Below, piece after piece: positions 907 through 25,040 of a stretch of DNA of 25,499 nucleotides (positions are counted from its first letter, which is position 1; each line of letters begins with the position of its first letter). Under the pieces are notes generated by a model that made no database searches, was not told the origin of the DNA, and worked only from the letters and a program-made list of their open reading frames with translations. Origin of the DNA: a virus. The translations under genes were made by a program, and so were the position numbers. The stretch covers positions 1-25,499 of the IMG/VR virus record IMGVR_UViG_3300030060_004542; one strand, written 5' to 3'.

Positions 907-915
907 TATTCACCT

Positions 916-1278: not shown

Positions 1279-1283
1279 CTTTT

Positions 1284-1517
1284 TTAATTATTTAGTTTCT
1301 GAACAAGATTAGATAAAAGATCTTTAATATCTCCCAATTCACCTTTGACATTATCAAGATCTTTCTTCATTTGATCTAACTCATTATTTTTATTTTCCAT
1401 AACTCTTTTTCTTTCCATGTAGGCAAGATAAGCCTTCTTATCTTTATTAACAATCGCTGTGGAATCTGAATCCCGAAATAGTCCAGACTTACCCTCAACT
1501 GGTATAAAATCACTCAT
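1284..1517 (-). CDS. Small coiled-coil protein in the fibritin (wac) slot
   Basis: This 77-residue protein has two parts. The N-terminal half (1-38) contains FIPVEGKSGLFRD (4-16) and a charged Lys/Tyr stretch. The C-terminal half is an unbroken heptad pattern with hydrophobic residues at L47, M50, L54, V57, L61, I64, L68, L71 and L75 (spacing 3-4 throughout), a strong signature of a parallel coiled coil. It overlaps the upstream 67-residue gene by four bases (ATGA), so the two are probably translationally coupled. In T4 the position just before gene 13 is held by wac, whose fibritin is a trimeric coiled coil anchored to the neck. The shared position and fold type are suggestive, but the sequence is not recognisably fibritin and is far shorter. 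I recall similar short proteins in marine T4-like phages, without known function. Confidence 0.7.
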   Translation of the reverse strand: MSDFIPVEGKSGLFRDSDSTAIVNKDKKAYLAYMERKRVMENKNNELDQMKKDLDNVKGELGDIKDLLSNLVQKLNN

Positions 1518-1717
1518 GCTGTTTTTACTTTAGATTTTACTTTCTTTTTAACTAAAGGGATAGGGAGATTAAAACCAGTGGATTTTCTAAATTTATCAGC
1601 ACCCTGTTTTATAACATCGGGAGTTCTAATCTGTACGGTTCCAGAACCCATTTCATCAGGTTTGGTTTCCATCATCTTAGGTGCTATGTTCTCCATGAAT
1701 TGTTTGTATGTTTTCAT
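1514..1717 (-). CDS. Small basic protein with capsid-targeting-like N-terminus
   Basis: This 67-residue protein begins MKTYKQFMEN. This is very close to the capsid targeting sequence of T4 internal proteins IPI-IPIII, MKTYQEFIAE, which directs them into the prohead before cleavage by the gp21 protease. After it come a Met/Glu/Pro-rich linker, a middle segment (28-50), a Pro-containing segment NLPIPLV (50-56) and a basic tail VKKKVKSKVKTA (56-67) that could bind DNA. A possible gp21 site would be MME/T at 15-18, but it departs from the (L/I)xE/(A/G/S) consensus. The start overlaps the stop of the DUF4815 gene by one base (TAATG), and the stop overlaps the next gene by four. No transmembrane segment is seen. 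The function is not known; packaging into the head is an inference from the N-terminus. Confidence 0.65.
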   Translation of the reverse strand: MKTYKQFMENIAPKMMETKPDEMGSGTVQIRTPDVIKQGADKFRKSTGFNLPIPLVKKKVKSKVKTA

Positions 1718-4700
1718 TAGGCTAATGCGATTGCTCTAAGTTCTTTGATTAATGGTGGTTGTGCTTGATCACTTCCAACCATATCTATCTTAATTTGAAA
1801 TTTAGTAAATGCTGGTATTTCTCTAGATGAGAAAACATATTCCTTAAATTCAGATCCAACAGATGCTAAAACCTTATCATCAGATCTTCCGTTATTATTA
1901 TCTGGATTAATGACTTTACCGAACTGATCAATATTATCAAAGCCAGGGAAAAGTTCAAAGTCTCTTTCCATACTACTTTCTGATGATCCTTGTGCGATTG
2001 TTTTAAAGAATACGCGAATATCTGATGATGTTCTTCGGTATGCAGAAAATTCAACTAAAATACTTGTTGCAGGGTTATCCAAAACAATTAAATTAGAAAC
2101 ATATGTTGATGCACATGGATCTTGACCAGTTTGATTTACTCTGGAATCAGTTGCAAAGTTTGATACAGGACTATTAATACGGTTTGTTGTTAAAACAGTG
2201 CTGACACGATCCAAATCAATCACAGGAGAAACATTTGGACTTGCACTACTCATTAAGACTTCCATTGTTAATGATTTATTTCCAGGCAAATCAGATAATT
2301 GTCTGTCTTCATTAACTTTTGATGCAACCATTCTTGTTGAATCAAAATGAGTTTGCTCATTTAATGATATAGGTTCAAATCCTTGATCAACAAATGATTG
2401 TTCTGATCCGTTAACACTAGTTGATGAAATTGTTCTAACTCTTGATCCGATAGAAGTTCCAGGCGGAGTCATTGTTTGAACATTTGGTGTGATTGTTTCA
2501 AATTGTATATTTTGTGTCGCAATAACATTTGATCCACCACCTCTTTTTGTGGATGAGAAGAAACGATCTGGTAATGATGAACCACTTCTATCTTCACCAT
2601 CGCTGTTCATGTCAATTTTAATATGATAGAAATCTAGATCCTTATTGTTTGTAACGGTTGGACTAGGGCTATTCATATCATGAGTTTTATTAACTCTTCG
2701 GAGAGAAACTCCAGAAAATTCATATTTTTTAATTACTTCTCCTGATGTATAACTTGATTTAGTTGTATTATCAATACCTCTAGTTGTAACTCCTGTGATA
2801 GAACCATTTGCAACACCTGTGTATGATATAATTTCATCTCCAATAATTGCATATCCAAAGTTCGTTGTTCCAACTCCAACACCTTCAAAAGTCGCAAAGT
2901 TATCTGATGCAACTACAGGTATATCTGATAGAGAATTATTTGTATAATCTGCTGTGAGTTTTGTTGAAGGAACATCTGAGTCAACTCCAGATATTTTCAC
3001 AAGGTTATTAAATGCATGTAAAGCATGAGAACGATGATTAACTTTGAAATGTAAACCATCATTGTTTGTGTCAACATCAAAGGTTGTGATTGTTACCCCA
3101 CTTCCAATATTACCGCCAGCTGTAACTCCTAAACCAGTTGTTCCATCTAATCCAAGAACTTGTGATCCATTATTGAATCCTATGGTTCCGATACCTGTGT
3201 TGAACGAACCTTGAATATTATCAATAACAATACTGTTTCTTTCAGTAACTAATCCAACAGAAACAACAGCACTACTTCCATTTCCAAGACCTAAAGTTCC
3301 AATACCAAGAGTATCACCAACTGCATAATTTTTACCACCATCTGTAAGAGTAATCGCACTTACAACTCCATTATTAATTGTGACATTTCCAACTGCTCCA
3401 CTTCCCTCTCCAGTTTCAGTGATCATTGGAATACTATTGTAAGTTAAAGAACCACTTGAAGGTGTATAACCAACGCCAGGATTAATTATGGTAATATCGT
3501 TTGGCCCACCGACTGTTGCAACACCAGCAATATTGATTAATGTCGCAGATGCGTTTAGATTACCAAACTGACTGATTGTGACACCAGGCACAAGTCCCGC
3601 TGTGTCAGGAATTGTTGTTCCTAATCCAACAATTGCCTTTTTAGATAAAGATGTGATTGGATTGGGTGCTAGAGTTGGAAGCTCATCATTACCAACTGCT
3701 AGTTCTGAGTTAAAGAATCTACCAACACTTGAACTTGTATTGAAAACTGCCTTATTAATTGTAAATTTCATGTCCTCATACTGACTTGGATCCCATGTTG
3801 TACCGTTTTGAGATTTAAATAGAGAACCTAAGTATGGTTGTTGACTAATTAATACCTGTTGTTCATCTGGTAAGTTTGCAGTTGATATATCAACCTCTCC
3901 CATTCTTGATATCCAACAATTATAGTTTTCTGCTGGAGTAACCAGAACAAGAGCATATTCATGTTCACCTGTTAGATAAACAGGAGATTCAAAAGTAAAT
4001 CTTGTAGGTATAGATGCATCTTCAGACACATTGACTTCACTTGGATCTAAAACAACAACACTAAATGGTAATATTTTAGATGTTGGTAAACCAGTTTCAA
4101 CAGTTCTTACCTGTAGTGTTAAAGGCAATTCTTCATCCTTAGTTTGCATGAATACATCAACAGATGTAATAAACACACCAGTTGTTTCGTCTACACGGAA
4201 GGTTTGTGCTAATGGGTCATAATATTGAACACCCCTAACCTCTGTAATCTGTCCAGCTGGCCCCTCAACCCTTCTTGTAATTTTATCATTTAGAATTCTT
4301 TGCTCTTCAACACCCAATCTTTCAATTTGTGGTGTTTTAATATTTAAAACTTGTTCTTGAACTGTTTCTAATTCACCCTTAGCTTGGAAGTTTGCCTCAG
4401 CAGATCCAGTTACAGTTCCAGTAATTGTGGAGTTTGTTGGACTTGTGGTTAAACGAAGAGTTTTTGTACCAGTTTCAAATCTTGGATTTGCATCTATGTT
4501 TGGATCTGGTATTTCAAAAGTAGCCTTTAAAAATCCTAAAGTATCTGAAATAAGTCTAACATTGGTAATTGTTGCCTCTGCACCACTTGTTTGACCGACA
4601 AGTTTCATGCCATTTGTAACATGCCCAGAAAATGTACCTTGCACTTGAGTCGCAAGACTAAAGGTATCTACGTTAAGGATTGATGACGATGTTGAATATA

Positions 4701-10887: not shown

Positions 10888-13800
10888 TTATGTAAAGGAC
10901 TCTTTTAAATCCCTAGTTCTGATAATCACAGGGCCAGTTTTGATTCCTGTAATACCATCATTTGTAATTGCGGTAAATGCACTATCATTTGTTGTAACAA
11001 AATCATGCAAACGACCCCAAGAGAACTTACCATAAAAGAGAGGATTAATTGTAGTGCCTATACCGACAGGGACAGTTAAACCTTCAATAGAATTTACACT
11101 TACAGTCACTCTTTTTAGAGCAGTAGCACCTATTCCAAGAGCAGGCCCTTGTATAATTTTAGCACTATGCACCTTGTATATATTATCTATGAAGGAAGTT
11201 CCAACTCCAACTGGTGAAGTTCCAATCGCATTTTCAAAAGAAGTTAAACCACTTCCAATATTTGTTTCAAATGCGGTGAAGTAATATCCTGATGTAATAC
11301 CACTTACAGTTATTGCACTTCCAACAACTGATGTATCACGAAGAACAGAATCTTTTGGAATAAAGAAATCTAATTGGAAAGCGGTTCCAATTCCAGCTAC
11401 AGTTGTTGTTGCAATTCCAACGATATGTCCAAAATCACCTTCATATTTGATACTAGTTAAAGTATTCTGAGTTATAGATTCTGGTTCAATTAACACTGAT
11501 GGTGGATTTGTATTTGTATATCCAGCACCAGCATTATTAATAGTGATTGCAGATATTGTTCCAACACCTGATACAGTTGCGGTAGCGGTAGCATTTGTTG
11601 ATGTTGTTCCAATTCCAGCATGAACAGTTCCAATTCCAGCAGTTACACCGATAGAAACATGTGGTGCTACGGTGTAACCTGATCCACCATCAGATATAAC
11701 AACACTTGATATTGTTCCACCAGCAGAAACAATTGCAGTTGCAGCAACACCTGTTTTAGTTGTGCGATCAAGAATTAAAACACTTTGTTTAGTTTCAACA
11801 ATATCATCAACTTGGTTGAATAATGGAACTGCTGTATCTGTGAATATTTCTGTAGAACCAGCAGACACACTCTTAATAATGTAGGCAGTCGGACGAATGC
11901 CAGGTTCTAATTCAGTTCTATCTTTACCAATTCCAATATTATTAACAACCACATCCTGTATTTGTTTTTTCCAAGTAACTGGTCTCTGAAGTGTTCTTAC
12001 TGTTGTAATTCCAGCATCAATGTAAGTATTAGTTGTTACAGTATCAGATGTAGTAATACCTGTGACTGTTCTTGGTTCTTGTTGGAATACTGCATCCAAA
12101 CCGATATCAGGATATTTGTTAATTGTGAGACTATCACCAGTCTTAACTGTTTCTAAAATATCAACCTCAGCGACATCATGTTCAGATCCACGATAATAAT
12201 AAACTCTTACCTTATCATCAGCTTTTGGTGCCTCTGAGAATGTAATTTGGGATCCACCATTAAAAACATAACTCTCAAGAGGAACTTGAAGAATATCATT
12301 TAAGAATATTAAACAATTATCTTCTACACGAATTGGAGATCCTTTTGCTGCTCTCAAAGTAATTGGAGTTTCAGATGCACCAATCGTTTTTGTGATCGGG
12401 AAAGATCTTCTCGTACCATCAAATAAGTCTTCAAATGAATTTAACTTTTCTAATTCACCAAATGTAAATCCAGCAAAACTATCATTGAATACATCAAGAA
12501 CAGTTAGAGAGAATGTTTTAAATGAACTACCAGCAGATGCATCAGTTAAAATACCAGCTTGACCACCCTCTTCAATTGTAAGAACATCATCAATCTTATA
12601 ATTATATCCAAAGTTTGTAATATCAAAACTAATTACACTTGATGCAGTTCCAACACGAACAGATACTGATGCACCAATACCTGTGGTGCTGCCCACTAAT
12701 CTCATATTTTCATAATTAAGTGGTTTTTCAAATTCAAGAGTTGGAGGAGTTGCAGAACTAAATCCTGATCCACCACTCGTAATTGTAACTGAGGTAACTA
12801 ATCCAGCAGAGACATTTGCCTTACCTATTGTTGTAACACCAGAGCTTGTAACAGCTCTCACAAGAATATTAGTTTGTAATCCAACACGATATCCAGATCC
12901 ACTATTACCGATTGATACAGACTCAACAGTTCCAGCAGCAGATACAATTGCAGTTCCACCAGCAGCTACTAAAGGTTGATATCCGAATGATGATGTCTCA
13001 CCAACAGATACAATAATACCACCTCTAGGAACTGATGATACATTTACATCATAACTATTTGTTACTCCAACACCAGTGAAACTTACAGATGTAATACCAG
13101 CAGTTTCAATAATATTATAATCATCATTTGGATTTTGGAAGATTTCATTTAGAAGTAAAACACCTGTATTTGTTGCAAATCCAGTTACATCTGATCCACC
13201 AGACTTTAGAATAAAGTTAGTTGCGATTCCTGTAAATTGATTTTCAAAAGTATCAAATACAAAATTGTTTGAATAAGTTTCTTGAGATCCGTCAGGAATG
13301 CCAGTATGAGTGAATACACGACCCACAAATGTAGATGTGGTTGTTAAACCAGCAGGGCCTTTTGATCCTTTAGGTGCATCAGTAAAGTTAATAGTATCTC
13401 TTACAATTTCATAGTTACCTAAGAACTTAGTTACAGTATCACCAGCACTATGATTTGCTAATGCAGAGTTAAGTTGTCCTTTCTTAACAAGAAGTTGATT
13501 TGTAGATCCAATACCCACAGTATCAATCTTCATAAATTCATCATTAATTTTGATAATATCACCAGAGAAGAATGATGATATACCTGTCAGAGTTATGAAG
13601 TCAGATGTTAGTAATGAATCAAATGCTAATGTTGTATTAACAGGAGATTGTATAACTGGACTTTGAATATTATTATCAAGAGTAATTAATGCCTTTGAGT
13701 TAAGATTCTTAGATGTAAATGAGTGTGTTGTTCCAACACCAACAGCTGTAACATCAATAACTTTTGGAACGGCTTGAAGTGCCTCAGCAGCAGTTCTTGC

Positions 13801-16800
13801 AAGTTTAAATTTATTTTCGGCAAGTTTAACTGCAAATACTGTTGGTGGTAATTTAGATGTAACACCAATTCCACTGATTGAGGTTGCTGCAATACCAATA
13901 CTCATTGTTGTACCAGCACCTGTGGGTGTGTAAGTTAGTTCTTCACCAGTTTGGAAGAAGTGATTATCAACTATAAATGTATCATTTGTAACATCAACGA
14001 CTGCAGCATCAGATGAGTTAAATGTTTTATGGAAGATTGAGTCACCAGTATGTTTTAAATTGAATGAGAACTTAACATCATTTTCAGTTCCAGTATATGA
14101 TCCCTCAGCTGATTTTAATCTAGAATCTGTAAATGTGACTAAACCAACTCCACCAGTTCCAGATTCGTTAAAGTTATATTGAAATACTTTTGTTGTAACT
14201 GCTGTGTTCGCTGGAGGTGTAAGACGAAGTTCAATGTCACCACCAGTTACAGATGAATATCCAACACCAATAGTTCCAATGCCAGAGAAACTGGTTACAT
14301 TGGTATTAAAGTTATCCATATAACCAAACTCTACAAACTGTGGAGTAATGGTATCATGAATTGCAGTCACTTGAGTTACAGCGTATCTGTCATTCGTAGT
14401 GTCATGTATTTCAATTAACGCATCAAAAGCAGTGTATGTAACAGAATTGATTCCACTAATTCTTGTTGGTTGTGGAGTTCCTGTTGATGCAATATCTGTT
14501 GTTGTGGTTAATATTTCAGTCAGTGATATTGTTGTGCTTCCAATTCCAGTTGCAGTTCCTCCGATTGCAACCTGATGAACTCTCATTGTAACACCAACAC
14601 CAGTGGTGGGTGTGAAATATACGCTCGTGATACCTGATCTTACATCTGCACCAAATGTTCCTAGACCTACGTTTGGAGAATTACTTTGAGAAGTATTCTC
14701 ATTAATCATTTGTGCATAATCTAAAAGATATACCTCTTCACTATCATTCAATACAACCAGTTCATTTAACTGAGTTCTTTGATCTCCACCCAATTCCTGT
14801 GTCTGGATGAATAACTTGGAGGTTGTAATCGCGGTTGATCCAAATCCCACAACTTGAACTGGAGATGGATCTGTAGATCCAATACCAGATGAGGTAGAAA
14901 TAATATCATATCCTGTTCCGAGTGATAGTGTGCTGATGCCAGATTGTGTATCTTTAAATGTTTCAATCGCAAATAATCTTAATGCATAATTATTAAATTT
15001 AGATTTAGCTGGAAGGAATCTTAAGTTTCCAGTTGTACCTGAAACATTGAAATCAAATTCACCAAGATCAATTGTAGTTTCAACACGACCAAATGGCATC
15101 ATGTATCCAAGAGATCCATCATGAAGTAAATTAATCTGAATTATTTCCTTCTCTCCAGAAAATCTAGTATCAAATATCATAGCATAGAACTTGACTCCAT
15201 CAATATCATTAATATTAAAGTCAAATACATCAGAGAATGCAGTTGCACGAGGTAAATCATTAAACTCAGAACTTACGCTATCAATCGTAATTGCTCTGTT
15301 AGTTCTTGATTCAATATAATCAGTTAAAACTCTATTTCCAAAATTAATTTCATCTGATGCAAATACTCCAGATATATTTTTTGAATTTTCACTAACTAAA
15401 TCAAAATCATAATAATTATGTAAAGACTCTTTTTCACTTACTAAATCGGAAACAACCACTGCGACTGATGATGAAACACCGACTGATGCATTTCTACGAT
15501 TCTTATCATCTGTTGATGCAGTTGAAACTACACTTACATCTGCAAAGTTTTTAAATCCAACAACATGACTTAAACTGTTAACAGGATCTCTCCATGTATC
15601 ATAATCAATTGTACTTCCTAATGAGTAAGAAAATGTTTGATAATAATTATTATCTGCTAGTCTTTGTAACTCAACATTTAACTTACCAGTTTCTTTTCCA
15701 AAACCACTTCTAAATTCTGAATCTGAGTCTATGTTGAATACAGAATCAAACTTTGTGGTTTGCTCAATTAATGCGATTGATTTAGATGATGATCCGTTAA
15801 TTGATTCTCCAACATTAAACGTATCATTTGAGAGAACTTTAAGATACTTATTATTCTCATTCCATGCAACAACAGTTCCAACTTTATCACCAGTGCTAAC
15901 AGTTTCGCCTAAACTAAATTGATTTGTCTCTACACTAATATTAAACTGTGCAATATTTTCAAAAGGTATAGCTTGACCAGATGATGACGGGCCACTAAAG
16001 ATGCCTGGGCTTGTGACTGATGAATCTAAATTATATGAAACTGACGCATTTCCTCCGCCTGGATTTGTATTTACACCAGTAATGACAAATGGTTCATAGT
16101 TATAATCCGATGAATTATAACCACTACCTGTTGATCCAATACCTATGTTTTCAACATATAATTTATCTCCTAATGTAAATGGATAAGTTGTTGAATCGTA
16201 TGCACCCTCTAGTGTTAAAGTTACAAGATTAGTTCCACTTGTATATGATAGGTTTTTAACTTTTATTCCATTATTATTATTAGTGGCAATAATTCTTGGA
16301 TTAGAATCATATAAAGTATTTGTGTTTGTTAAAAGTCTAACTTCTGATACGGATGTTCCTTGAATATCAACCGCTGTTATAACCTCATTCTTAACTGTGT
16401 TTGTAACTCTATCAATAACAACAATATTAGGTGGGTTAAGATAATTTTTACCAGCAGAACTAATTCCAATGCTGTCTATTTTTGATAATCTATCTAACCT
16501 TAAAATTTGAGGTAATGAAACAGATGGTTGAATTGTTTTGTCAGCTGAGTAATCAAATCCAATATTTTTAATTGTATATCTTCTAAGTTTTCCTATTTCA
16601 TCACTGTTTAAACGAACAACACCACCAACTCCAAGAGTAGACCCGATTGAAGTTACAACTGGTATAGTGCGATAATTTCTTCCCTTTGAAATAATTTTAA
16701 TATCATTAATACTTCCTATGGCTGTTGTAGAAGAAGTATTGTATTCTAATGTAGTTGCTTCATCTTTTGTATATCCATCTTTCTCAGGTTGTTCTGGAAG

Positions 16801-19800
16801 AACGAAGGAGAAGGTTGTACTACCAATTCCACTCACAAAATAACGACCATTATATCCACTATCAGATATAATTAAATTTGAGAAATTTATAACATCGGTA
16901 TCAACAATCGGATCTCTTTTAAAAGGAGCATTAATGTTAAAATTTATTGGAGTTAATTGATAAAATAAATTATCAGGAGTGTTATTCGTAAGTGAAAGAT
17001 CAACTCTTGCAGTTGTTGTTACACCAACTGTCCCAACACCTGTGACTTGGAATCCGCCATCTTCAACATTATTAAAATATGGATTGGTAAAATTAAAATC
17101 TCTGAATAAATTAAAATCAAAAACTTGAGTTCTCTTACCAGATACAACTTGTGTGAGAGATGTATCCGAGACTGCAAATCCGACTTTATATCCACGAGTT
17201 AATTGTAATGGTGGATTAATTAAAGCAATAGTGTGTCCAGATCCAGTTGAAGTGAGTGAAATACAATCAGGGACTAATTTCTTAGATTTAAAGAATGATT
17301 CAGATAATTTAATTGTATTTTTATCAATTCTGACTATAAAGTATGTAAAATTACTCTTTAGTGGATTTGCTGTGTTTGAAGATTTATAAAGAATTTTATC
17401 ACCTGTTTTATATCCATGATTTGGAATTGTGATTTGATCTTTATTTGTATCAATAGCAGAGGCACCAAAATTAATTGGATTAATAAATGTTCTACGAGTT
17501 GTATCATCAAATTCAACTTGGAATGAAGTTGTGATGCCTGGTGTTAGTGAAACTGAAACTTGATCATTCGCTTGTAACCCATGTGACTCCTTACAAACAA
17601 CTGTAGCGACAACTTTCTCTGCAAAACCAGTAATTTCCTCTCTTTGTGGTTTTAAACTATGAACATTACCTGTTCCATGACCTTTAAAGAATAGTTGATA
17701 AGCAGTTGATCCAATACCAGTAACTGAACCTGTAGATCCAATCGCAACTGGATTCGTAGATAAACCAAGTAAATTAACGCCAGCATTAATTGCAAAAACT
17801 GGAGAGTTATTTGTTAAACTAAATGTTGATATTCCATTTGAAACTAAAAGAGGATTTCCAGTATCACTAGAATATAAAAGTTTTTCACCAGTTTTAAATC
17901 CATGACTCTGTAAGAAAATATTTTGTGTTGGAACAAATCTCTCTGTTGATCCACCACCTATGACACGGAATGAATATCTAATCGTAGAACCAATACCAAC
18001 ACCAGCTGATTCTCCTAACGCAACACTTTCAATTGGATTAAAGTAATATGGAATGTTAACTCTAGTTTGTATATCAGTATTAATACCTAAGTTAAATGTT
18101 ATGGATCTGTTTAAAGATGTGATTAGAGAAGTGCTTGAGTGTCCAGTTCCTAAGACACCATCAAATTCTCTCTTAACTCTTATCTTGTCATTGATATCAT
18201 CAACGTTAAGAACTAACATTCTCTCAGTTGTAATACCTATAACATCATTTGCTTGAATACTATTTCTTGATAAATCACCAGTTACAGACAAACTTGTAAC
18301 AATCCCTGTTGCACCAGTTGTTCCGATTCCTGTGTTTAGAAGAAGGAATGAAGTATTAAATCCAATTTGATGTCTACCATCTAATCTTCTTAAAGTATCC
18401 GTTGATAAACCTGATACAGAAATAACATCTCCTACAACTAAATCATGTGGTTGTGATGAAAGTCCTGTAACATTTCCATTTTCATTGTTATATGAAAATA
18501 CTAAATTTTCAATTTTAACAACCGTTGATGCAATAGATACAATTTCCTTTCCCTCTACTCTTCCAACTTCAGCAGAGAAACCTCTTCCATCACCTAAGTT
18601 TTGTATTCTCAAAGGATCTTTGATTTGATATCCAGATCCAGAACTTAAAATTTCAAATTGATTGATTCTGCCTGGTGATGCATAATTAACTTCAACTTCT
18701 TGATCAACTAATTTACGACTATCATGTATTCCTTCATAATCAGTTCCAGAGCTATCAAGTTTATATGGGTTTGAATTTCTGCGTAAATTTAAAGTATTAA
18801 AATCTAAATCTTGATTATTTGTTTCTATGAAATTAAATTCATCAGGTTTTGCAATAAAGTTTTCACCAATTAAATATGGAAATACTGGAGCTCTAAAGTT
18901 TTTAAATGTGCCACTTGTTTCATTTTTATCTGGATTAATGGTAGCAAAATAGGCGTAAGTTCCCTTTGGAAAATCTGGTGTAATACAAAATCTTCCATTA
19001 TTTTCATCAAGATCTCCGTTTCCAAGATATTCAAAATCTTCAATAAAAAATCCAAGTGGGAAAGTATTAATTGGAGGCCCATTCTCTCTAGTTGTTTTTA
19101 ATCCATAACCAGATCTCATAACTCTCACTACACCACCATCTTTACGATCATATCCGTATGGGCCATAAATTGGATTACCATCATATGACCATCCAATAAT
19201 TGGTGAGTGATTTAATGACGCTTGTTCTGCATTGTTTAAAAGATTTAAATCGTTTGATGTGTAATCTACTGTGCCATCACTATTTTTTTGTTTAAGTATT
19301 TTTCTTAAACCTCTAGGTGCGTAAAAAGATGTAAATTTAATTCCCTCATCATTATCACCACGAGTTAAGAATCCATCATCTTCAAAGAAGATATCTTCAT
19401 ACCTTTTTACATTATTAACTGCCCAAGACTTAATTTTAGGTAAGAAAATTGCACCAGAGCCAGGAATGACCTCTTGAACACCAACAGATGCAGTTGAGTA
19501 TCCGACACCACCATTATCAACTGTAACATTATCTACGATTCCATTACTAATAGATGATATAATTTTTGCACCAACACCATCACCTAAAATAGTTAAATCT
19601 GGTGCGGAAGTATATTCGCCACCAGAACGAGTTACAATAACAGATTGTATTCTTCCATTTGATACAATCGCCTTATATTCAGATGATGATCCAGAAGAAA
19701 CACGAACAGTTGGTGGAATACTAAAATTAAAAGTAGTTGGAGATCCATATCCAAGGCCAGGTTTTTCTACGTTAATAGAAGTAATTGAACCTCTAACGAT

Positions 19801-22800
19801 TGGATTGACTTTTGCATGATAATTTTCTGGATGTGCAGTGTTAATTCCAATTGTCCCTTTGACATTTACAACGATTGGAGGATAATTAAAAATATGATCT
19901 CCAGAACCCACTGATGTTAATCCAACAAATTGTTTTGAAAGATAATTTGCATTAGATAAAGTTGTTCCAATTCCAGCAGATGCAAGTCGGAATCTATCCT
20001 CACTTACTTTTAAAACATAGTAATCTTGTTCTGTATCAAGACCTCCAATTGTAATTCCAATTCCTGAATGTGAATATCTAACTAACTCTCCATCTTGAAA
20101 TCCATGATTTTTAAATTGAATAAAATCAGAATATGTGTTAATACCAGCTGTAGTAACCAATCTTCTTTTATTTTCATATCCTTCGCCAGGATTATCTATG
20201 ATAATTTGACCTAAAACAAATTTCTTTCTTAAACTTTGAAATCTTTGAGAACCATCCGCAAATCCAGTGAGATTGATGAGATTGGACTTGGTTAAAGCAT
20301 CATTCTTATTATTTGCAAGTTTAATTGTCGTTTGATTAACTTTAGATACAAAATATATTGATTCGTCAACGAGTCTTTGATCTGGATTAAGTTGAATCGC
20401 AGTTGTAGTGATACCAGCACTCGCAATACCAATTGATCCTGTATTAAAGGTTTTATAGATTACAGCTTCTCCATCACGGAACTTATGGAAAGTTCCAAAA
20501 CCAATCGTATCATCGGCAATATTAATTGCATTACCTGTAGATGATGCGTCAAAATCTACAAAATGATCTACTTGTTTCAACCTTGCTCTTGCAATCGCGT
20601 TTTTTCCATTACCACCACTAATTTCAATTACAGGAGGTGAGACATAATCAAAGCCTGGATCAAGAATGTCAATTCTTTTAAATTGACCTTTTATATTTGC
20701 AGTTGCACTTACACCAGCACCAGCTAAACTTGTGACATCTACTTTTGGAGGATTAATCAAATCATATTCACTACCACCTTCCAAAACATCAATTGATTCA
20801 ACACCACCAAATTGAATTACATCTCCAGATTTATAATTTGATATTTCCGTTCCATTAATTAAAATTCCAGTTGTGCCTGGAGATGTCTCTCTTTTAACAC
20901 CATCAAATAGGGGATTAATTGAAATTCTTTTTAATAATTTTTGATGATCAAGTTTTTTATTTGCAAGATCTGGAACTGATATCTTAAATGTTCCAGTACC
21001 AGTTGCATCAACGAAATCACCATTGATTAGATCTGGTAATGAGTTTGCAAGACGAATATTGTTTGAATCAACACGACTTACAAAATAATTTTTACCATCA
21101 ATTAGTTGTCCTAGGAAACCACTGATTACATTATAAGTGACAACCTCTCCAGAATAGAAACCATGATCTGCTGCACCTTCTGTAACCTGTATCAACTGTA
21201 TAAGGTCGCCGCCTGTCGCGCCAGTCCATGATATAGAACGATCTGGTGCAGTAATGGGTTCATTACCTAAACTCGGTAGAGAGGGTGAGGCAACGTATAC
21301 ATGAGGGTGTGGAGGTTTTGCAAAAGCATTACCAATCTCATGATCATAAGTATTTTGAACGTCAACAGTATATTTTTGAATATTAGTATGAACTGAACTG
21401 TTTCCTCTTTTGAGTTTTCTACGGATAAAGGCGATATTAAATTCACCAACGCTTGGCAAATCACCTAAAACAAAAGTTGCACTTCCAATAACAGTTAAAA
21501 CACGACCAGTACCAATTACACGAGATTGTCCATCTAATACCTCTACTTGATCCTCTTCTAAAAGTCCATGAGCAGATTTTGTTTCAATGTTAAAACTACT
21601 TGAAGATATACGAGTAACGGTGTTTGGAGTAAATTTAACTGATGTATTATAAACCCATGATCCAAAATGAGGATCCTCAGAACTTTTATTAATACCAAAA
21701 GTTCCAACTTTAATTTTATCACTCTTATTGAAATAAAAAGTTGTGTCTGGAATCGGGAAGTCTTTTAAAACACCAGTGATTAAAACTTCTATTTTTTTAG
21801 TATTATTTGCAAAAGAATATCCATACGCAACGTTATTATATCTAACATCATTACCAATAATTAAGGCATCTTTCATAGTGCCTAAACCTGTAAATTGATT
21901 GATAGTTTTACCAGTGTAAGTTACGATTCCTGATACATTTGCTTGTGGTAATAAAATAGATCCACTTGTTGGAAATCCAACTGTAGTATCAACTGTGATT
22001 ACAGTCGCACCAATTGATACGGGGTTTGTAATGCGAGTTCTGCCTGGAACCACAAAATCACCATCAATTGAATCTTGTGATAAAGTAATTTGATAATAAT
22101 GTTCACCATCATATAAAAAGTCTTTAACATTAGATATCGCACCAGAGGCACCTAAAATATTTTTATCATCTTTATCTTTATCTTGAAAAAGTGTAGATCC
22201 GATTAAATCCTGTGGATTACCCTCTATTGATCTAACAACAAAATCTTGACCAAATCCATAATCAGCATCTGATGGTTTAATTAAAAAATCTGATGGTTTA
22301 ATAATATTAACTTCTTCACCATATAAAACTCTGAATAATATACGATATGATTCTTCTGTTCCCTTCGTTCTATAAAAATCTTTAATTTGACGAATAAACT
22401 TGACTTGATCTAAATCACTATTTAAAGTTCTATTCTCAAAACCACTTGCAAATGTTGTTTTTAATTTTTTAAAGAATTCACGAATAAAAATATTAGAAAG
22501 ATTATGAACTTTTGATCCACCTGTATGTGCAACACCAACAGATGTTCTAAAATCTAAAACATCAGGTTTTGTTGGTTGTTTTAAAGCATTGACACCACTA
22601 AATCCACGAACACAACCAGTAAATGAAGTTGTACCAATTCCAGTATATGTAATAATCTCATCATCAATTTTAAGTAATCCGTACTTATCTGGATAACCTT
22701 TTGTAGAGTCTACAAATATCGTGTTTGAAAATGCTTGAGTATCAGTAGATAGTCCAGTAAATTCTGTAAGTGCAGCACCTACATAAGTTTGTAATTTTGT

Positions 22801-22971
22801 GTAACGATCAATATTTTCTGCAATATTGATAGATGCACCTTGAAACTCTTGAGAAATATAATACTGTTTTAAAAAATCCACAAAAAGTGGACTTTCTGCT
22901 TGCACAAATTCAGGTAACTGGTTTTCAATTACCTGATTTATCTCTACTCTTTGTATTGAAGTATCAATCAT
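10888..22971 (-). CDS. 7: Giant gp7-like baseplate wedge protein with beta-repeat insertions and YHYH-like domain
   Basis: This 4,027-residue protein (T4 gp7 is about 1,030) sits exactly where T4 has gene 7, between 6 and 8. Residues about 195-220 read FYRTKGTEESYRILFRVLYG followed by EEV, closely matching T4 gp7 (FYSTKGIEASYKFLFKVLYN, EEV), and DLIGSTLFQ follows as T4 DLVGQTIY. A second gp7-like stretch, TFSYSLGST..YDTWRD..NSLSHVVGF, lies only at about 2450-2472. Between and after these lie some fifteen GxGY units, seven or more HGF..GE..Y units, a YHYH-like domain (about 1252-1370), a SGATG-type module and two LND.LQ.P domains near the C-terminus. No signal peptide or membrane segment is seen. 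In T4, gp7 starts wedge assembly by binding gp10 and gp8. Start: ATG with AGGA five bases upstream, sharing one base with the gp6 stop. The frame is open throughout with no sign of decay. Confidence 0.85.
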   Translation of the reverse strand: MIDTSIQRVEINQVIENQLPEFVQAESPLFVDFLKQYYISQEFQGASINIAENIDRYTKLQTYVGAALTEFTGLSTDTQAFSNTIFVDSTKGYPDKYGLLKIDDEIITYTGIGTTSFTGCVRGFSGVNALKQPTKPDVLDFRTSVGVAHTGGSKVHNLSNIFIREFFKKLKTTFASGFENRTLNSDLDQVKFIRQIKDFYRTKGTEESYRILFRVLYGEEVNIIKPSDFLIKPSDADYGFGQDFVVRSIEGNPQDLIGSTLFQDKDKDDKNILGASGAISNVKDFLYDGEHYYQITLSQDSIDGDFVVPGRTRITNPVSIGATVITVDTTVGFPTSGSILLPQANVSGIVTYTGKTINQFTGLGTMKDALIIGNDVRYNNVAYGYSFANNTKKIEVLITGVLKDFPIPDTTFYFNKSDKIKVGTFGINKSSEDPHFGSWVYNTSVKFTPNTVTRISSSSFNIETKSAHGLLEEDQVEVLDGQSRVIGTGRVLTVIGSATFVLGDLPSVGEFNIAFIRRKLKRGNSSVHTNIQKYTVDVQNTYDHEIGNAFAKPPHPHVYVASPSLPSLGNEPITAPDRSISWTGATGGDLIQLIQVTEGAADHGFYSGEVVTYNVISGFLGQLIDGKNYFVSRVDSNNIRLANSLPDLINGDFVDATGTGTFKISVPDLANKKLDHQKLLKRISINPLFDGVKRETSPGTTGILINGTEISNYKSGDVIQFGGVESIDVLEGGSEYDLINPPKVDVTSLAGAGVSATANIKGQFKRIDILDPGFDYVSPPVIEISGGNGKNAIARARLKQVDHFVDFDASSTGNAINIADDTIGFGTFHKFRDGEAVIYKTFNTGSIGIASAGITTTAIQLNPDQRLVDESIYFVSKVNQTTIKLANNKNDALTKSNLINLTGFADGSQRFQSLRKKFVLGQIIIDNPGEGYENKRRLVTTAGINTYSDFIQFKNHGFQDGELVRYSHSGIGITIGGLDTEQDYYVLKVSEDRFRLASAGIGTTLSNANYLSKQFVGLTSVGSGDHIFNYPPIVVNVKGTIGINTAHPENYHAKVNPIVRGSITSINVEKPGLGYGSPTTFNFSIPPTVRVSSGSSSEYKAIVSNGRIQSVIVTRSGGEYTSAPDLTILGDGVGAKIISSISNGIVDNVTVDNGGVGYSTASVGVQEVIPGSGAIFLPKIKSWAVNNVKRYEDIFFEDDGFLTRGDNDEGIKFTSFYAPRGLRKILKQKNSDGTVDYTSNDLNLLNNAEQASLNHSPIIGWSYDGNPIYGPYGYDRKDGGVVRVMRSGYGLKTTRENGPPINTFPLGFFIEDFEYLGNGDLDENNGRFCITPDFPKGTYAYFATINPDKNETSGTFKNFRAPVFPYLIGENFIAKPDEFNFIETNNQDLDFNTLNLRRNSNPYKLDSSGTDYEGIHDSRKLVDQEVEVNYASPGRINQFEILSSGSGYQIKDPLRIQNLGDGRGFSAEVGRVEGKEIVSIASTVVKIENLVFSYNNENGNVTGLSSQPHDLVVGDVISVSGLSTDTLRRLDGRHQIGFNTSFLLLNTGIGTTGATGIVTSLSVTGDLSRNSIQANDVIGITTERMLVLNVDDINDKIRVKREFDGVLGTGHSSTSLITSLNRSITFNLGINTDIQTRVNIPYYFNPIESVALGESAGVGIGSTIRYSFRVIGGGSTERFVPTQNIFLQSHGFKTGEKLLYSSDTGNPLLVSNGISTFSLTNNSPVFAINAGVNLLGLSTNPVAIGSTGSVTGIGSTAYQLFFKGHGTGNVHSLKPQREEITGFAEKVVATVVCKESHGLQANDQVSVSLTPGITTSFQVEFDDTTRRTFINPINFGASAIDTNKDQITIPNHGYKTGDKILYKSSNTANPLKSNFTYFIVRIDKNTIKLSESFFKSKKLVPDCISLTSTGSGHTIALINPPLQLTRGYKVGFAVSDTSLTQVVSGKRTQVFDFNLFRDFNFTNPYFNNVEDGGFQVTGVGTVGVTTTARVDLSLTNNTPDNLFYQLTPINFNINAPFKRDPIVDTDVINFSNLIISDSGYNGRYFVSGIGSTTFSFVLPEQPEKDGYTKDEATTLEYNTSSTTAIGSINDIKIISKGRNYRTIPVVTSIGSTLGVGGVVRLNSDEIGKLRRYTIKNIGFDYSADKTIQPSVSLPQILRLDRLSKIDSIGISSAGKNYLNPPNIVVIDRVTNTVKNEVITAVDIQGTSVSEVRLLTNTNTLYDSNPRIIATNNNNGIKVKNLSYTSGTNLVTLTLEGAYDSTTYPFTLGDKLYVENIGIGSTGSGYNSSDYNYEPFVITGVNTNPGGGNASVSYNLDSSVTSPGIFSGPSSSGQAIPFENIAQFNISVETNQFSLGETVSTGDKVGTVVAWNENNKYLKVLSNDTFNVGESINGSSSKSIALIEQTTKFDSVFNIDSDSEFRSGFGKETGKLNVELQRLADNNYYQTFSYSLGSTIDYDTWRDPVNSLSHVVGFKNFADVSVVSTASTDDKNRRNASVGVSSSVAVVVSDLVSEKESLHNYYDFDLVSENSKNISGVFASDEINFGNRVLTDYIESRTNRAITIDSVSSEFNDLPRATAFSDVFDFNINDIDGVKFYAMIFDTRFSGEKEIIQINLLHDGSLGYMMPFGRVETTIDLGEFDFNVSGTTGNLRFLPAKSKFNNYALRLFAIETFKDTQSGISTLSLGTGYDIISTSSGIGSTDPSPVQVVGFGSTAITTSKLFIQTQELGGDQRTQLNELVVLNDSEEVYLLDYAQMINENTSQSNSPNVGLGTFGADVRSGITSVYFTPTTGVGVTMRVHQVAIGGTATGIGSTTISLTEILTTTTDIASTGTPQPTRISGINSVTYTAFDALIEIHDTTNDRYAVTQVTAIHDTITPQFVEFGYMDNFNTNVTSFSGIGTIGVGYSSVTGGDIELRLTPPANTAVTTKVFQYNFNESGTGGVGLVTFTDSRLKSAEGSYTGTENDVKFSFNLKHTGDSIFHKTFNSSDAAVVDVTNDTFIVDNHFFQTGEELTYTPTGAGTTMSIGIAATSISGIGVTSKLPPTVFAVKLAENKFKLARTAAEALQAVPKVIDVTAVGVGTTHSFTSKNLNSKALITLDNNIQSPVIQSPVNTTLAFDSLLTSDFITLTGISSFFSGDIIKINDEFMKIDTVGIGSTNQLLVKKGQLNSALANHSAGDTVTKFLGNYEIVRDTINFTDAPKGSKGPAGLTTTSTFVGRVFTHTGIPDGSQETYSNNFVFDTFENQFTGIATNFILKSGGSDVTGFATNTGVLLLNEIFQNPNDDYNIIETAGITSVSFTGVGVTNSYDVNVSSVPRGGIIVSVGETSSFGYQPLVAAGGTAIVSAAGTVESVSIGNSGSGYRVGLQTNILVRAVTSSGVTTIGKANVSAGLVTSVTITSGGSGFSSATPPTLEFEKPLNYENMRLVGSTTGIGASVSVRVGTASSVISFDITNFGYNYKIDDVLTIEEGGQAGILTDASAGSSFKTFSLTVLDVFNDSFAGFTFGELEKLNSFEDLFDGTRRSFPITKTIGASETPITLRAAKGSPIRVEDNCLIFLNDILQVPLESYVFNGGSQITFSEAPKADDKVRVYYYRGSEHDVAEVDILETVKTGDSLTINKYPDIGLDAVFQQEPRTVTGITTSDTVTTNTYIDAGITTVRTLQRPVTWKKQIQDVVVNNIGIGKDRTELEPGIRPTAYIIKSVSAGSTEIFTDTAVPLFNQVDDIVETKQSVLILDRTTKTGVAATAIVSAGGTISSVVISDGGSGYTVAPHVSIGVTAGIGTVHAGIGTTSTNATATATVSGVGTISAITINNAGAGYTNTNPPSVLIEPESITQNTLTSIKYEGDFGHIVGIATTTVAGIGTAFQLDFFIPKDSVLRDTSVVGSAITVSGITSGYYFTAFETNIGSGLTSFENAIGTSPVGVGTSFIDNIYKVHSAKIIQGPALGIGATALKRVTVSVNSIEGLTVPVGIGTTINPLFYGKFSWGRLHDFVTTNDSAFTAITNDGITGIKTGPVIIRTRDLKESFT
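11480..11720 (-). repeat. Two GxGY units near the C-terminus of the giant protein
   Basis: Units VVISDGGSGYTVAPHVSIG and ITINNAGAGYTNTNPPSVLI are the best-preserved copies of the family, separated by an Ala/Thr/Gly-rich spacer containing AGIGTTSTNATATATVSG. Confidence 0.8.
12550..12940 (-). repeat. Three GxGY-type units in the giant protein
   Basis: Units VSIGNSGSGYRVGLQTNIL, VTITSGGSGFSSATPPTLEF and FDITNFGYNYKIDDVLTIEE are arranged in series with Ala/Gly/Val spacers. This cluster lies between the two LND/LNE..Q.P domains. Confidence 0.75.
13710..13990 (-). repeat. HGF..GE..Y repeat, C-terminal unit in the giant protein
   Basis: A single unit with NHFFQTGEELTYTPTG, then VFAVKLAENKFKLARTAAE and a closing VGVGTTHSF, follows the same plan as the units several thousand bases to the right, but lies beyond the second gp7-like stretch. 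Confidence 0.65.
16420..16720 (-). repeat. Three GxGY-type units in the giant protein
   Basis: Units ISKGRNYRTIPVVTSIG, IKNIGFDYSADKTIQPSV and ISSAGKNYLNPPNIVVID follow one another. They are more diverged (NY or DY in place of GY) but keep the spacing and the preceding I..I.I strand. A lone unit, LSSGSGYQIKDPLRIQNLG, lies further right near 18625. Confidence 0.7.
17225..17950 (-). repeat. HGF..GE..Y repeat family, further units in the giant protein
   Basis: Units HGFKTGEKLLYSSDTGNPL and HGYKTGDKILYKSSNTANPL are so alike that a fairly recent duplication is plausible; a short degenerate copy, SHGLQANDQVSVS, lies between them. The second ends with YFIVRIDKNTIKLSES, the standard distal half of the module. 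Confidence 0.75.
19470..19800 (-). repeat. Tandem GxGY beta repeats (three units) in the giant protein
   Basis: Three consecutive units of the form 'G.I..I.I...G.GY...P.V.I' occur here: VEKPGLGYGSP.., VTRSGGEYTSAPDLTI and VDNGGVGYSTASVGV. Each unit is a short beta hairpin-like pattern ending in Gly-x-Gly/Glu-Tyr and separated by an Ala/Gly-rich spacer. This is the clearest tandem cluster of a family found about fifteen times along the protein. Confidence 0.8.
19885..21172 (-). repeat. HGF..GE..Y repeat family, three units in the giant protein
   Basis: Three units of about 65-90 residues share the plan 'HGF.(S/D)GE.V.Y ... YFV.(R/K)V....I.LA ... G.G...F': HGFYSGEVVTYN/NYFVSRVDSNNIRLAN; KFRDGEAVIYK/IYFVSKVNQTTIKLAN; and HGFQDGELVRYS/DYYVLKVSEDRFRLAS. 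They alternate with GxGY units. A more diverged copy (AHGLLEEDQVEVLDG) lies just right of this block. Confidence 0.75.
20620..20830 (-). repeat. Two GxGY-type units in the giant protein
   Basis: Two units, LEGGSEYDLINPPKVDV and LDPGFDYVSPPVIEISG, keep the Gly..Tyr..PP.V.I pattern of the GxGY family, joined by an Ala-rich spacer. A single divergent unit (DNPGEGYENKRRL) follows further left near 20170. Confidence 0.7.
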
Positions 22972-25040
22972 TAATATCCTGAACCAGAACTAGGAGTTGA
23001 ACTAGATCCACCACCTGTGGCGGTTGTTGAACTACTTGCACTTGTAGTTGTTGTTGCTGCAGCTCTCGCAGCACTTGTTGATGATGATGTAACGGTAGTT
23101 GCAGTGGAAGCTGCGGTTGCACTAGTGACTAAACCTGTTGTAGATACTTCAGATTTAGAATCACGAGTAAACTTCGGCATATAGTAACTATGTGTATGTA
23201 TGAACCTTGAACCTGATGTGTTTTCTCCAGAAGCAATTGTGTCAGGAACCATAGTTAAAGTTGTATTTGTCATATCAAACTTAACATACAAATCACGCAG
23301 TCCAATCACATCATTTGAGTGAGGAACTGCTTGAATTTCAATTACGTTGTTCTCTATTACCGTTGAAAGTATGTTACAAGTATCTATAAGAATTTCTCCA
23401 TGCAAATAATCAACTGTTCCAGCGTTTTTCTTAACTATAGTTGGTTCTCCACCTTCCACATAAGTAAAGAAGAAAATTCTTCCACTACTACTTGAAATTT
23501 TTTCATCTGCAAGATAAACAACGTTTGGAACACCCTCTATTGTAAATCCTGTTGATATGATGTTATATGCAGGCTCAGCTTGATACATCCGATTACCATA
23601 ACAAAGTTCATACTGAGCAAATCTTCCAATTTCTGCTCTTAGATTTCTTCTCATACAAACTAAAGTGATATTGGATGTGATTGATGAATCTACAGAGTCA
23701 ATTAGTGAGACTGCTTTACTATATTTGAATCTACCACCAAATTTATTCACATCAATTGATCTTGAGTATTGTTCAAGTGCATTTGAGACTGAAGTTTTTA
23801 AGTTATTCACATCATCATTTAAACTTGGATTATAATAAGCGTTAACTTTAAGTTCTACATACAGATACTTCAAATCAATGAACTCTGGGACGATGCCAGC
23901 AACCGCATAACTCTTTAATTTTTGTATAAGTTCTCTTTTTGTTTCATCTGATAGAAAATCACCATTTCTTGGTTTAACAGAGATAAAAACTTTGCCAAAA
24001 CGAGGTGGAGTCATTTCTTCACCACCATAAGCAGTTACAGACTCTACGTTTGGATAAATGAAACCTAAAACAGATTCATAGTCAGAAGAGGTGACTGCAC
24101 GATACTGAGATGAATAAATTCTTGGTGCAAAATACTTGATTGATGAAATTGATTCAATATCATCACCATCTCTTGACTTTTCTACGGTTGTCACAAGTGA
24201 AATATTGCCTGCATCAATGACTCCACCATCCTGATCAGTAATATTACCTACAAAACTAAAGTCAGAAGCGCCATTTCCTTCTTTTCCATCAGTTGTAACG
24301 TATGAAACCTCTATGAAGTTGTTATTTGATAGTTTTTTACCAATTACGTTATCACCAAAGATTAATTCATATCTTTCATCTTCAATCTCTTGTAGTAAGT
24401 ATGATGAAGAGGTAGATGTAACACCAACAATATTATCAATTTGTTGATAATTAACAAATGCAGTTGATGACTCTGATGGTTTAACCTTAACTTTTATTGT
24501 TGATGTATCAATAAATGAATTATCAAGAATAAATCTTTGATTAAACAAGGAACTATCAAAAGTAAAGTTTTGACTTACAAAGTTGCCTTCAAAGATCTCA
24601 ACATTCTCAAATATTGCGACTCCATTCTTAACAGGAACTGTGATACTTTCAGGAAGTGAAAATACGAAGTTTGAGTTACGTCCAGCACCGTTACAAACAA
24701 CGCCCTCATTAATTTTAAGAGATGATGTCTCAGTGAGATCATCTACAGTAAAAGATATCTTTGCTCTCGCTGATCTTCTTGATCTTGGCACATATCCAAT
24801 GTTTCTTGCAAGTGCAACGACGTTTTCTCGGAGTGTAGAAGAGTCCAGAAAACACTCATTCGCTGCCATATTGGTATTATATGCAGTAATGTATGTATTA
24901 TATGCTAACGCATCAATTATGATTGAAAGGTTTGACCCTTCAAAGTCATAATCGGTGAAATTTGTATTTGCCCTCAGATAATCTCTGATGGACTGTTTTA
25001 TTTCATCAAAATCTAAATTAACGTATTGTCCAAAAGCCAT
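22971..25040 (-). CDS. 6: gp6 baseplate wedge protein
   Basis: This 689-residue protein is the T4 gp6 homologue (660 residues in T4). gp6 forms the continuous ring of dimers that ties the six wedges together around the hub. The N-terminus has IKQSIRDYL..NTNFTDYDFEGS (14-36) and IIDALAYNTY (41-50), then NIGYVPRSRRSARAKI (80-95), all close to T4 gp6. A baseplate-J-like core spans about 300-415, with FAPRIYSSQYRAVTSSDYES and a following PPRFGKVFISVKP. The last 60 residues or so (about 630-689) are almost only Ser, Thr, Ala and Gly, which I do not recall from T4 gp6. The start shares one base with the gp25 stop (TAATG), with only a weak TAGAG upstream, so translation is probably coupled to gp25. 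The stop is coupled in the same way to the giant gene. Confidence 0.95.
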   Translation of the reverse strand: MAFGQYVNLDFDEIKQSIRDYLRANTNFTDYDFEGSNLSIIIDALAYNTYITAYNTNMAANECFLDSSTLRENVVALARNIGYVPRSRRSARAKISFTVDDLTETSSLKINEGVVCNGAGRNSNFVFSLPESITVPVKNGVAIFENVEIFEGNFVSQNFTFDSSLFNQRFILDNSFIDTSTIKVKVKPSESSTAFVNYQQIDNIVGVTSTSSSYLLQEIEDERYELIFGDNVIGKKLSNNNFIEVSYVTTDGKEGNGASDFSFVGNITDQDGGVIDAGNISLVTTVEKSRDGDDIESISSIKYFAPRIYSSQYRAVTSSDYESVLGFIYPNVESVTAYGGEEMTPPRFGKVFISVKPRNGDFLSDETKRELIQKLKSYAVAGIVPEFIDLKYLYVELKVNAYYNPSLNDDVNNLKTSVSNALEQYSRSIDVNKFGGRFKYSKAVSLIDSVDSSITSNITLVCMRRNLRAEIGRFAQYELCYGNRMYQAEPAYNIISTGFTIEGVPNVVYLADEKISSSSGRIFFFTYVEGGEPTIVKKNAGTVDYLHGEILIDTCNILSTVIENNVIEIQAVPHSNDVIGLRDLYVKFDMTNTTLTMVPDTIASGENTSGSRFIHTHSYYMPKFTRDSKSEVSTTGLVTSATAASTATTVTSSSTSAARAAATTTTSASSSTTATGGGSSSTPSSGSGY

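Follow-up and report, generated by a model that had tools for sequence, protein, structure and literature searches.

In bacteriophage T4, the baseplate wedge protein gp7 (1,032 aa; PDB codes 5iv5 and 5hx2) is encoded between gp6 and gp8. One gp7 chain pairs with two gp6 chains, and six copies are present per baseplate. Within the chain, domain V (PF21427, residues 766-861) sits between two helical stretches, which we refer to as the KGT helix and the HPxG helix, in that order. Short gp7s, encoded after gp6, are found in the phages HTVC008M, Mosig, Melnitz, phiN3, RHph_I1_18 and BUCT-ZZ01 (PF23786). Other gp7s are much longer, reaching 4,156 aa in S-SM2, 4,446 aa in P-HM1, 5,195 aa in P-SSM2 and 6,376 aa in Syn33. 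The giant proteins of P-SSM2, S-SM2, Bellamy and others are already annotated as "baseplate wedge initiator" or "baseplate wedge subunit", and one "baseplate wedge initiator" from P-SSM4, with 7,312 aa, is listed as the largest bacterial-virus protein in a proteome survey (PMC8553790).

One of these giant proteins is reported from virions. SSM1_102 of phage S-SM1 (T4-GC 969, 6,180-aa frame) contains both gp7 core halves described below, and T4-GC969 is among the 41 multi-peptide proteins reported for purified S-SM1 virions by Sullivan et al. 2010 (PMC3037559). In S-CREM2, ORF122 (1,937 aa), which lies between wedge genes, was represented by 91 unique peptides (PMC10665884); from its place and size, we infer that it is gp7. 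A similar idea is described for AlgoCIS, where a wedge protein (Alg11/Alg12) carries a sizeable additional domain of about 366 residues (domain IV of Alg11, spike cage), the likeness being drawn from its published description (PMC8894135). The make-up of the record-size "baseplate wedge initiator" proteins is unexplained in the open-access literature searched, in which we found no description of a split core, of an entry point in domain V or of a separate arm (subscription papers were outside this scope).

Gene content of the window

The window, meaning the whole stretch of DNA analysed here, is a 25,499-base virus fragment from IMG/VR. Its wedge genes, their neighbour and the parts of the giant ORF are as follows.

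10888-22971, minus strand: giant ORF assigned to gp7, 4,027 aa, 433 kDa, stop codon included in the coordinates; phrog_2885 "baseplate wedge subunit", 3325 bits
22042-22953, minus strand: first half of the wedge core, residues 7-310; profile and hhalign matches
22318-22377, minus strand: KGT stretch, residues 199-218, equivalent to T4 gp7 734-753; phmmer and profile search
15772-22041, minus strand: insertion, residues 311-2400, 2,090 aa, 226 kDa; gap census, conservation profile and predicted fold of residues 310-1509
18874-19254, minus strand: YHYH-family domain within the insertion, residues 1240-1366, with YAYF replacing the eponymous motif; PF14240, 83 bits against a cut-off of 25
15457-15771, minus strand: second half of the wedge core, residues 2401-2505; profile matches and shuffles
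15553-15630, minus strand: HPxG-type stretch, residues 2448-2473, equivalent to T4 gp7 860-888; PDB profile search and hhalign
10891-15456, minus strand: C-terminal arm, residues 2506-4027, 1,522 aa, 161 kDa, encoded from about residue 3039 onwards by a distinct ORF in some relatives; arm profile and relatives
22971-25040, minus strand: gp6, baseplate wedge, 689 aa; phrog_219, PF21379
25040-25432, minus strand: gp25-type baseplate wedge protein, 130 aa; phrog_261, PF04965
9298-10857, minus strand: gp8, baseplate wedge, 519 aa; phrog_438, PF09215
1717-9291, minus strand: DUF4815 protein, 2,524 aa, at the VrlC position of annotated relatives; PF16075 and phrog_358 (unknown function)

According to PHROG and Pfam, the gene order is gp25, gp6, giant ORF, gp8, and the giant ORF thus occupies the place of gp7 in the wedge operon, as gene 7 does in T4. 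Its best stretch against PHROG 2885 covers residues 4-3383. It displays the same order of parts as the giant gp7s of PHROG 2885 from P-SSM2, S-SM2, P-HM1 and Bellamy, and is 30-37% identical, in long aligned stretches, to the gp7s of S-SM2, S-8S53 and P-SSM2. The length after the second half is 1,522 residues in the window versus 2,653 in P-SSM2.

VrlC follows gp8 in P-HM1, S-SM2, HTVC008M and S-SM1. Beyond the gene at this position in the window, the gene at 916-1278 matches PHROG 3304 (L-shaped tail fiber protein assembly) and the gene at 67-906 matches the end of PHROG 211 (head-tail adaptor Ad2). A weak module is common to residues 205-418 of gp8 and the gp7 C-terminal arm (16.1 bits; also PHROG 701), so several wedge proteins carry it. 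The photosystem family PF00124 was found in none of eight related IMG/VR records (22-248 kb, of unknown completeness), including the 247,932-base record L173, which encodes a gp7 of 3,703 aa.

Two stretches of the giant ORF match gp7

An earlier note on this DNA had pointed to gp7-like stretches near residues 200 and 2460 of the giant ORF. Both are present: FYRTKGTEESYRILFRVLYG corresponds to residues 199-218, with EEV directly after it (219-221), and SYSLGSTIDYDTWRDPVNSLSHVVGF corresponds to residues 2448-2473. The matching stretches of T4 gp7, residues 734-753 and 860-888, are 106 residues apart, close to the 110 or so given in that note, versus 2,229 in the window. The chains also differ outside these stretches. 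The match starts near residue 678 in T4 versus 149 in the window, leaving T4 with more than 500 additional residues ahead, and the second stretch is followed by 1,554 residues in the window versus 144 in T4.

The first half comprises the N-terminal helix, the KGT helix and the beginning of the region that corresponds to domain V; its profile match extends to residue 316. It matched T4 gp7 directly (phmmer, E 0.0032), and a profile built from 12 phages, with no T4-like row, retrieved gp7 among all PDB sequences at E 4.8e-7 and 8.1e-6; up to E 10, it retrieved two distinct PDB sequences, both of which are gp7. Against T4 gp7, hhalign gave a probability of 96.9 and an E of 2e-10 for this half. 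The KGT-helix segment is homologous to T4 gp7.

The second half was recognised most clearly through the short gp7s. A profile built solely from six of them found window residues 2414-2495 at 39.9 bits, all other listed stretches of the window scoring 0 or less. With the second-half profile built without the window row, residues 2402-2501 scored 80.6 bits. When the window protein was shuffled 250 times, the highest score was 2.0 bits. For the window, the shuffles and the six-phage profile rule out a chance match of the second half. The link to T4 is more modest. Against the PDB, the second-half profile from 13 phages placed gp7 at ranks 1 and 3 (E 0.098 and 0.36), rank 2 going to an unrelated maturase; hhalign against T4-like gp7s alone gave an E of 6.1e-5 and a probability of 64.9 at the collinear place, T4 848-895. 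T4 gp7 itself scored 12.0 bits with the 13-row profile, a value equalled by 1 in 1000 shuffles of T4 gp7, and 3.8 bits with the six-row profile, equalled by 3 in 1000. All five T4-like gp7s were matched at the collinear place by the 13-row profile, at 8-14 bits. The HPxG segment is thus tied strongly to the short gp7s and modestly to T4: the second half is firmly identified as a relative of the short gp7s and is probably a relative of T4 gp7.

The best conserved 40-residue blocks of the window and 54 giants are distributed over both halves and the YHYH domain: 2441-2480 in the second half, 1321-1360 and 1241-1280 in the YHYH domain, and 81-120, 1-40 and 201-240 in the first half.

The insertion and its YHYH domain

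Residues 310-1509, which cover more than half of the insertion, were predicted as an almost purely beta chain (mean pLDDT 82.8, pTM 0.69). The search of this model against the PDB with Foldseek gave no match at E 0.001, and among viral models the gp7 of phage Bellamy matched it best (query TM 0.75). VIA-align returned tail-tip and baseplate chains of phages Chi and JBD30 (Z 9.5 and 8.9, with rmsd above 16) and ATPase barrels (Z about 8). We read these as common small barrels rather than as kinship with the Chi, JBD30 or ATPase chains.

The insertion had been described as made of repeats, which is not borne out. No DNA tandem repeat was detected, and no off-diagonal self-BLAST pair was detected at E 0.01. 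What is found is a weak, dispersed G-Y module, around residues 715-800, 1050-1165, 2082-2230, 3330-3475 and 3737-3850.

The PF14240 match of the window lies above the cut-off of the family. The YHYH domain is present in all 75 complete giants (near copies included) and in none of the complete short gp7s of the sample. When whole records of 12 phages were searched, PF14240 was found in six, those in which the two gp7 halves are separated by at least 1,457 residues, and no match was found in the records of T4, Melnitz, phiN3, HTVC008M, Mosig and S-CRM01. The Syn33 record contains a second YHYH match at 75632-77284, in a separate 1,721-aa frame after gp9. The window YHYH region also matches SSM1_104 of S-SM1 (L493:7516-11679), a PHROG 708 protein adjoining gp9.

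According to a published prediction, YHYH domains act as tail-associated metal-dependent hydrolases and contain three histidines and one aspartate (PMC7824862). This prediction, together with the rank of the domain among the best conserved parts of the giants, could suggest that the arms of the giant protein are mainly enzymatic and open the cell envelope. Against this, both histidines of the Y-H-Y-H motif are missing in all 55 aligned giants, where the motif reads YAYF (47, including the window), FAYF (4), YAYY (3) or YCYF (1). The only histidine conserved above 80% in the domain is 1255, near the aspartates 1264, 1312 and 1322. As far as can be judged from the alignment, the missing histidines do not fit a metal-dependent hydrolase, and mainly enzymatic arms appear unlikely.

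The C-terminal arm

Residues 2506-4027 had been overlooked in the earlier note. Its overall interpretation is upheld for the split gp7 core and has to be corrected for the repeats and for these 1,522 residues. An arm profile (window residues 3039-3780) matched the same ORF as gp7 in 66 of the 75 complete giants. In eight of the other nine, the arm is a separate downstream ORF; in the ninth, L288, the contig ends too early. The separate arm adjoins gp7, at about 20 bases, in L086, L088, L091, L092, L093 and L094, and follows after one intervening ORF in L320 and after three in L284. The six adjacent cases belong to two clusters of near copies, placed side by side on the gp6 tree, and may therefore represent one event. 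Seven of the eight separate arm ORFs run past the end of the available sequence, the complete one being that of L320. Four further contigs were left out of this count: L264 and L328, in which the arm ORF starts about ten bases past the second-half ORF and gp7 is incomplete, and L142 and L065, in which the break lies inside the arm. These four cases may be frame errors of the contigs.

The separate arm protein of L320 (1,614 aa) starts with a match to positions 1-84 of PHROG 708. SSM1_104 of S-SM1, a "baseplate wedge subunit" whose gene lies between gp9 and gp8, belongs to this family. Ahead of the L320 arm is an ORF that matches PHROG 677 (tail fiber connector) and, at a score under the cut-off, T4_gp9_10_N. 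Judging from these ORFs, the arm can exist as a baseplate protein of its own, which in the window is tethered to gp7.

Outside the giant clade, the gp7s of L343, L453 and L409 (1,446, 1,676 and 1,401 aa) extend 627-1,175 residues beyond the second half, although their halves are separated by small gaps of 94-484, so C-terminal growth happened elsewhere too. In the gp7s of Syn33 (L008) and S-SM1 (L493), about 500 residues separate the N-terminal part (4-109 in Syn33) from the KGT part (613-814), a third place of growth.

Spacing of the two halves and history of the insertion

We measured the gap between the end of the first-half match and the start of the second-half match, which is 2,092 in the window (309 to 2401). 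The census loci came from six scans, several of which were restricted to 80 loci or to the matches listed, and from named phages, and the counts describe that sample. The census excluded ORFs shorter than 120 aa and matches with an E above 0.001. In the five T4-like gp7s, the second half misses this threshold, and they are therefore outside the 363 ORFs with both halves. The isolates S-CRM01 and S-H34 joined the set later and were measured separately. Of the 363 ORFs, 284 are complete, or 159 once near copies are removed. Alignment A4 holds 35 of the 56 listed small-gap ORFs, and alignment A5 holds the window and 49 of the 68 giants.

Both halves are present in short and giant relatives alike. 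Among the 54 giant representatives, the gap ranges from 1,457 to 2,619, with 46 of them at 2,036-2,138. The named short gp7s, from HTVC008M, Mosig, Melnitz, phiN3, RHph_I1_18 and BUCT-ZZ01, have gaps of 98-713, and the short gp7s of the sample other than the minimal ones described below have gaps of 88-869. Related phages with shorter gp7s that do not have the insertion, whose existence the earlier note had proposed to check, are thus available. Lower or intermediate values are seen in S-CRM01 (gp7 of 1,454 aa, gap 986) and S-H34 (1,942 aa, gap 1,503).

A gp6 tree was built with the "quick" method from 107 rows, near copies having been removed from a set of 138. It is unrooted (midpoint for drawing), its T4 branch is very long, and support is weak at several deep forks. 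Its label "giant" means at least 1,400 aa, and thereby includes L453, L343 and L409 by their C-terminal length, not by an insertion. The 38 insertion carriers make up one side of a branch with an SH-aLRT of 99, and the nearest groups, with a fork support of 94, are pelagibacter phages, methylophilales phages and seven other small-gap contigs. As the carriers lie on one side of a branch, the insertion most likely arose once. Phages with no arm in gp7 occur inside the insertion clade at two places (L284 and L320; L088 and L093).

The reverse history, in which the giant gp7 is ancestral and the short gp7s lost the insertion, draws on the missing root and the weak deep forks, and on S-CRM01 and S-H34, which lie within the giant clade, so that shrinkage is possible there. 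It is nevertheless quite improbable given the single well-supported branch of the carriers and the gp7s outside the clade, whose gaps are at most 869 where measured in the census.

The two halves as one core

The order of the halves is reversed in none of the 363 ORFs. In two minimal gp7s, L451 (482 aa, a two-member cluster) and L443 (490 aa, a four-member cluster), the profile matches of the two halves are only 9 and 12 positions apart, respectively. These near-contiguous halves, together with the strict order, indicate that the two halves are one core.

The Pfam family PF23786 (Baseplate_wedge) leads to the same conclusion. All six short gp7 relatives match it above the cut-off. In short gp7s, model positions 154-230 align with the first half, and positions 230-278 align with the second. 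The first half carries positions 154-230 in HTVC008M and 162-228 in Mosig, and positions 230-278 correspond to residues 462-506 in RHph_I1_18. From these alignments, PF23786 is a single model of both gp7 halves joined. The window protein scores 25.3 bits, just under the curated cut-off of 27; there is no Pfam match in its own second half, and 7 of 13 second halves match PF23786 up to E 1 (best E 2.9e-5). T4 gp7 does not match PF23786 up to E 1. Conversely, the families PF21428, PF21427 and PF21456 (Gp7_helical, Gp7_5th and Gp7_6th) match neither the window protein up to E 0.1 nor the six short gp7s up to E 1.

The minimal gp7 L451 also provides a structural link. Its model is poor overall (mean pLDDT 50.9, pTM 0.26), with a beta domain at residues 131-220 that has block means of pLDDT 70-89. 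Among 350,542 PDB chains, the top three Foldseek matches of this model are phage baseplate entries (E 4.8e-8, 2.6e-7 and 3.6e-5), which we read as gp7 from their entry and length. The superposition of the whole length on gp7 chains is meaningless (TM 0.16-0.17, rmsd 23-28), and the fold link therefore rests on the barrel. With VIA-align, residues 130-221 of the model superpose on 5iv5_BJ 762-853, which corresponds to domain V of T4 gp7 (Z 9.7, rmsd 3.3, 89 aligned), and the model also superposes on 9f4a_A0 (Z 9.8, rmsd 2.8, 86 aligned). The gp7 rows occupy ranks 2, 3 and 11, rank 1 being a tail tube protein that matches through another domain. The C-terminal domain of L451 (residues 362-443; L451:1788-3233) resembles the barrel of the phage tail tube entry 9n71 (Z 10.7, rmsd 4.4, 80 aligned), and many unrelated barrels score 7-9.

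In the window, only the first part of domain V is visible by sequence (match to T4 814), the barrel itself being seen in the L451 model. As the first-half match of L451 stops at residue 193 and the second starts at 202, the insertion would enter, by offset, near T4 825-834, inside the domain V barrel; this is arithmetic on alignment ends and places the entry with less than residue-level precision. The earlier claim that the gp7 wedge core is kept and split by about 2,100-2,200 residues thus agrees with the minimal relatives, the order of the halves, PF23786 and the barrel of L451.

Under a different reading, the two stretches would be separate domains of one large protein, resembling T4 gp7 by chance or through a common module. 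It could appeal to how weakly the second half matches T4: an unrelated protein ranks between the two gp7 entries in the PDB search, and occasional T4 shuffles equal the scores. However, separate domains would hardly keep the same order in 363 of 363 ORFs, stand 9-12 positions apart in minimal gp7s, share one Pfam model and match five of five T4-like gp7s collinearly. In addition, the second half occurs without the first in only two complete ORFs of the first census, both on contigs with a broken-looking gene. We regard this reading as highly unlikely.

An equally low probability applies to the view that gp7 is absent and that VrlC stands in its stead, as published for cyano- and pelagimyophages in a 2020 study (PMC7029224). 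Homologues of gp7 are found after gp6 in HTVC008M, Mosig, P-HM1, S-SM2 and others, alongside VrlC after gp8, and their occurrence in VrlC-bearing genomes speaks against that statement. Finally, the giant ORF might be an assembly or binning artefact, since the window is a 25,499-base IMG/VR fragment, but the same arrangement of parts recurs in 75 complete giants (near copies included) from other contigs and from isolates, among them P-SSM2, P-HM1, S-SM2 and Syn33, which makes this negligibly probable.

Discussion

We propose that the giant ORF encodes the gp7 wedge subunit of a T4-like, Kyanoviridae-related phage, extended by a nested insertion and by a C-terminal arm. We assign this explanation as a whole a probability of roughly 0.8, and for the narrower statement that the ORF is a gp7 with a split core our confidence is very high. 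At the level of the primary structure, the gap opens at the domain V position and the core is followed by a further 1,522 residues.

The helical parts of the two halves would come together in the folded chain and, as in T4, each wedge would contain this bundle paired with two gp6 chains. The 2,090-residue nested beta chain would leave and re-enter the wedge at the barrel and form a lateral arm, its direction being taken from analogy. Through the C-terminal arm, a component that is a baseplate protein of its own in some relatives would be tethered to each wedge. The two arms may then constitute an outer baseplate layer, formed in T4 by gp10, gp11 and gp12, and hold fibres or receptor-binding parts. 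In the earlier note, the extension was taken to project from every wedge, six times per virion, as a collar or fibre-like appendage; the number six would follow by analogy with T4, and the collar or fibre is a speculative reading.

The idea of an outer layer comes from two observations. The gp7-like part of AlgoCIS is described as laterally exposed, as touching the tail fibres and as a re-engineering hotspot (PMC8894135), and cyanomyoviruses are said in a review to be devoid of g10, g11 and g12 (PMC2984593). By this analogy, we consider an outer-layer function of the arms slightly more probable than the contrary. A further step is doubtful and is offered tentatively: the outer baseplate might be one covalent chain per wedge, in which the gp7 arms took over the structural and receptor-contact roles of gp10, gp11 and gp12, and in which the contraction trigger is transmitted within one polypeptide.

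Reading the protein as a gp7 core with a nested arm and a C-terminal arm provides testable domain borders for structural studies of abundant marine phages. The series of gp7s, from 482 to more than 6,000 residues, presents a wedge protein that grows and keeps its place in the machine, and hints at the way in which a family of very large phage proteins enlarged while staying in the tail.
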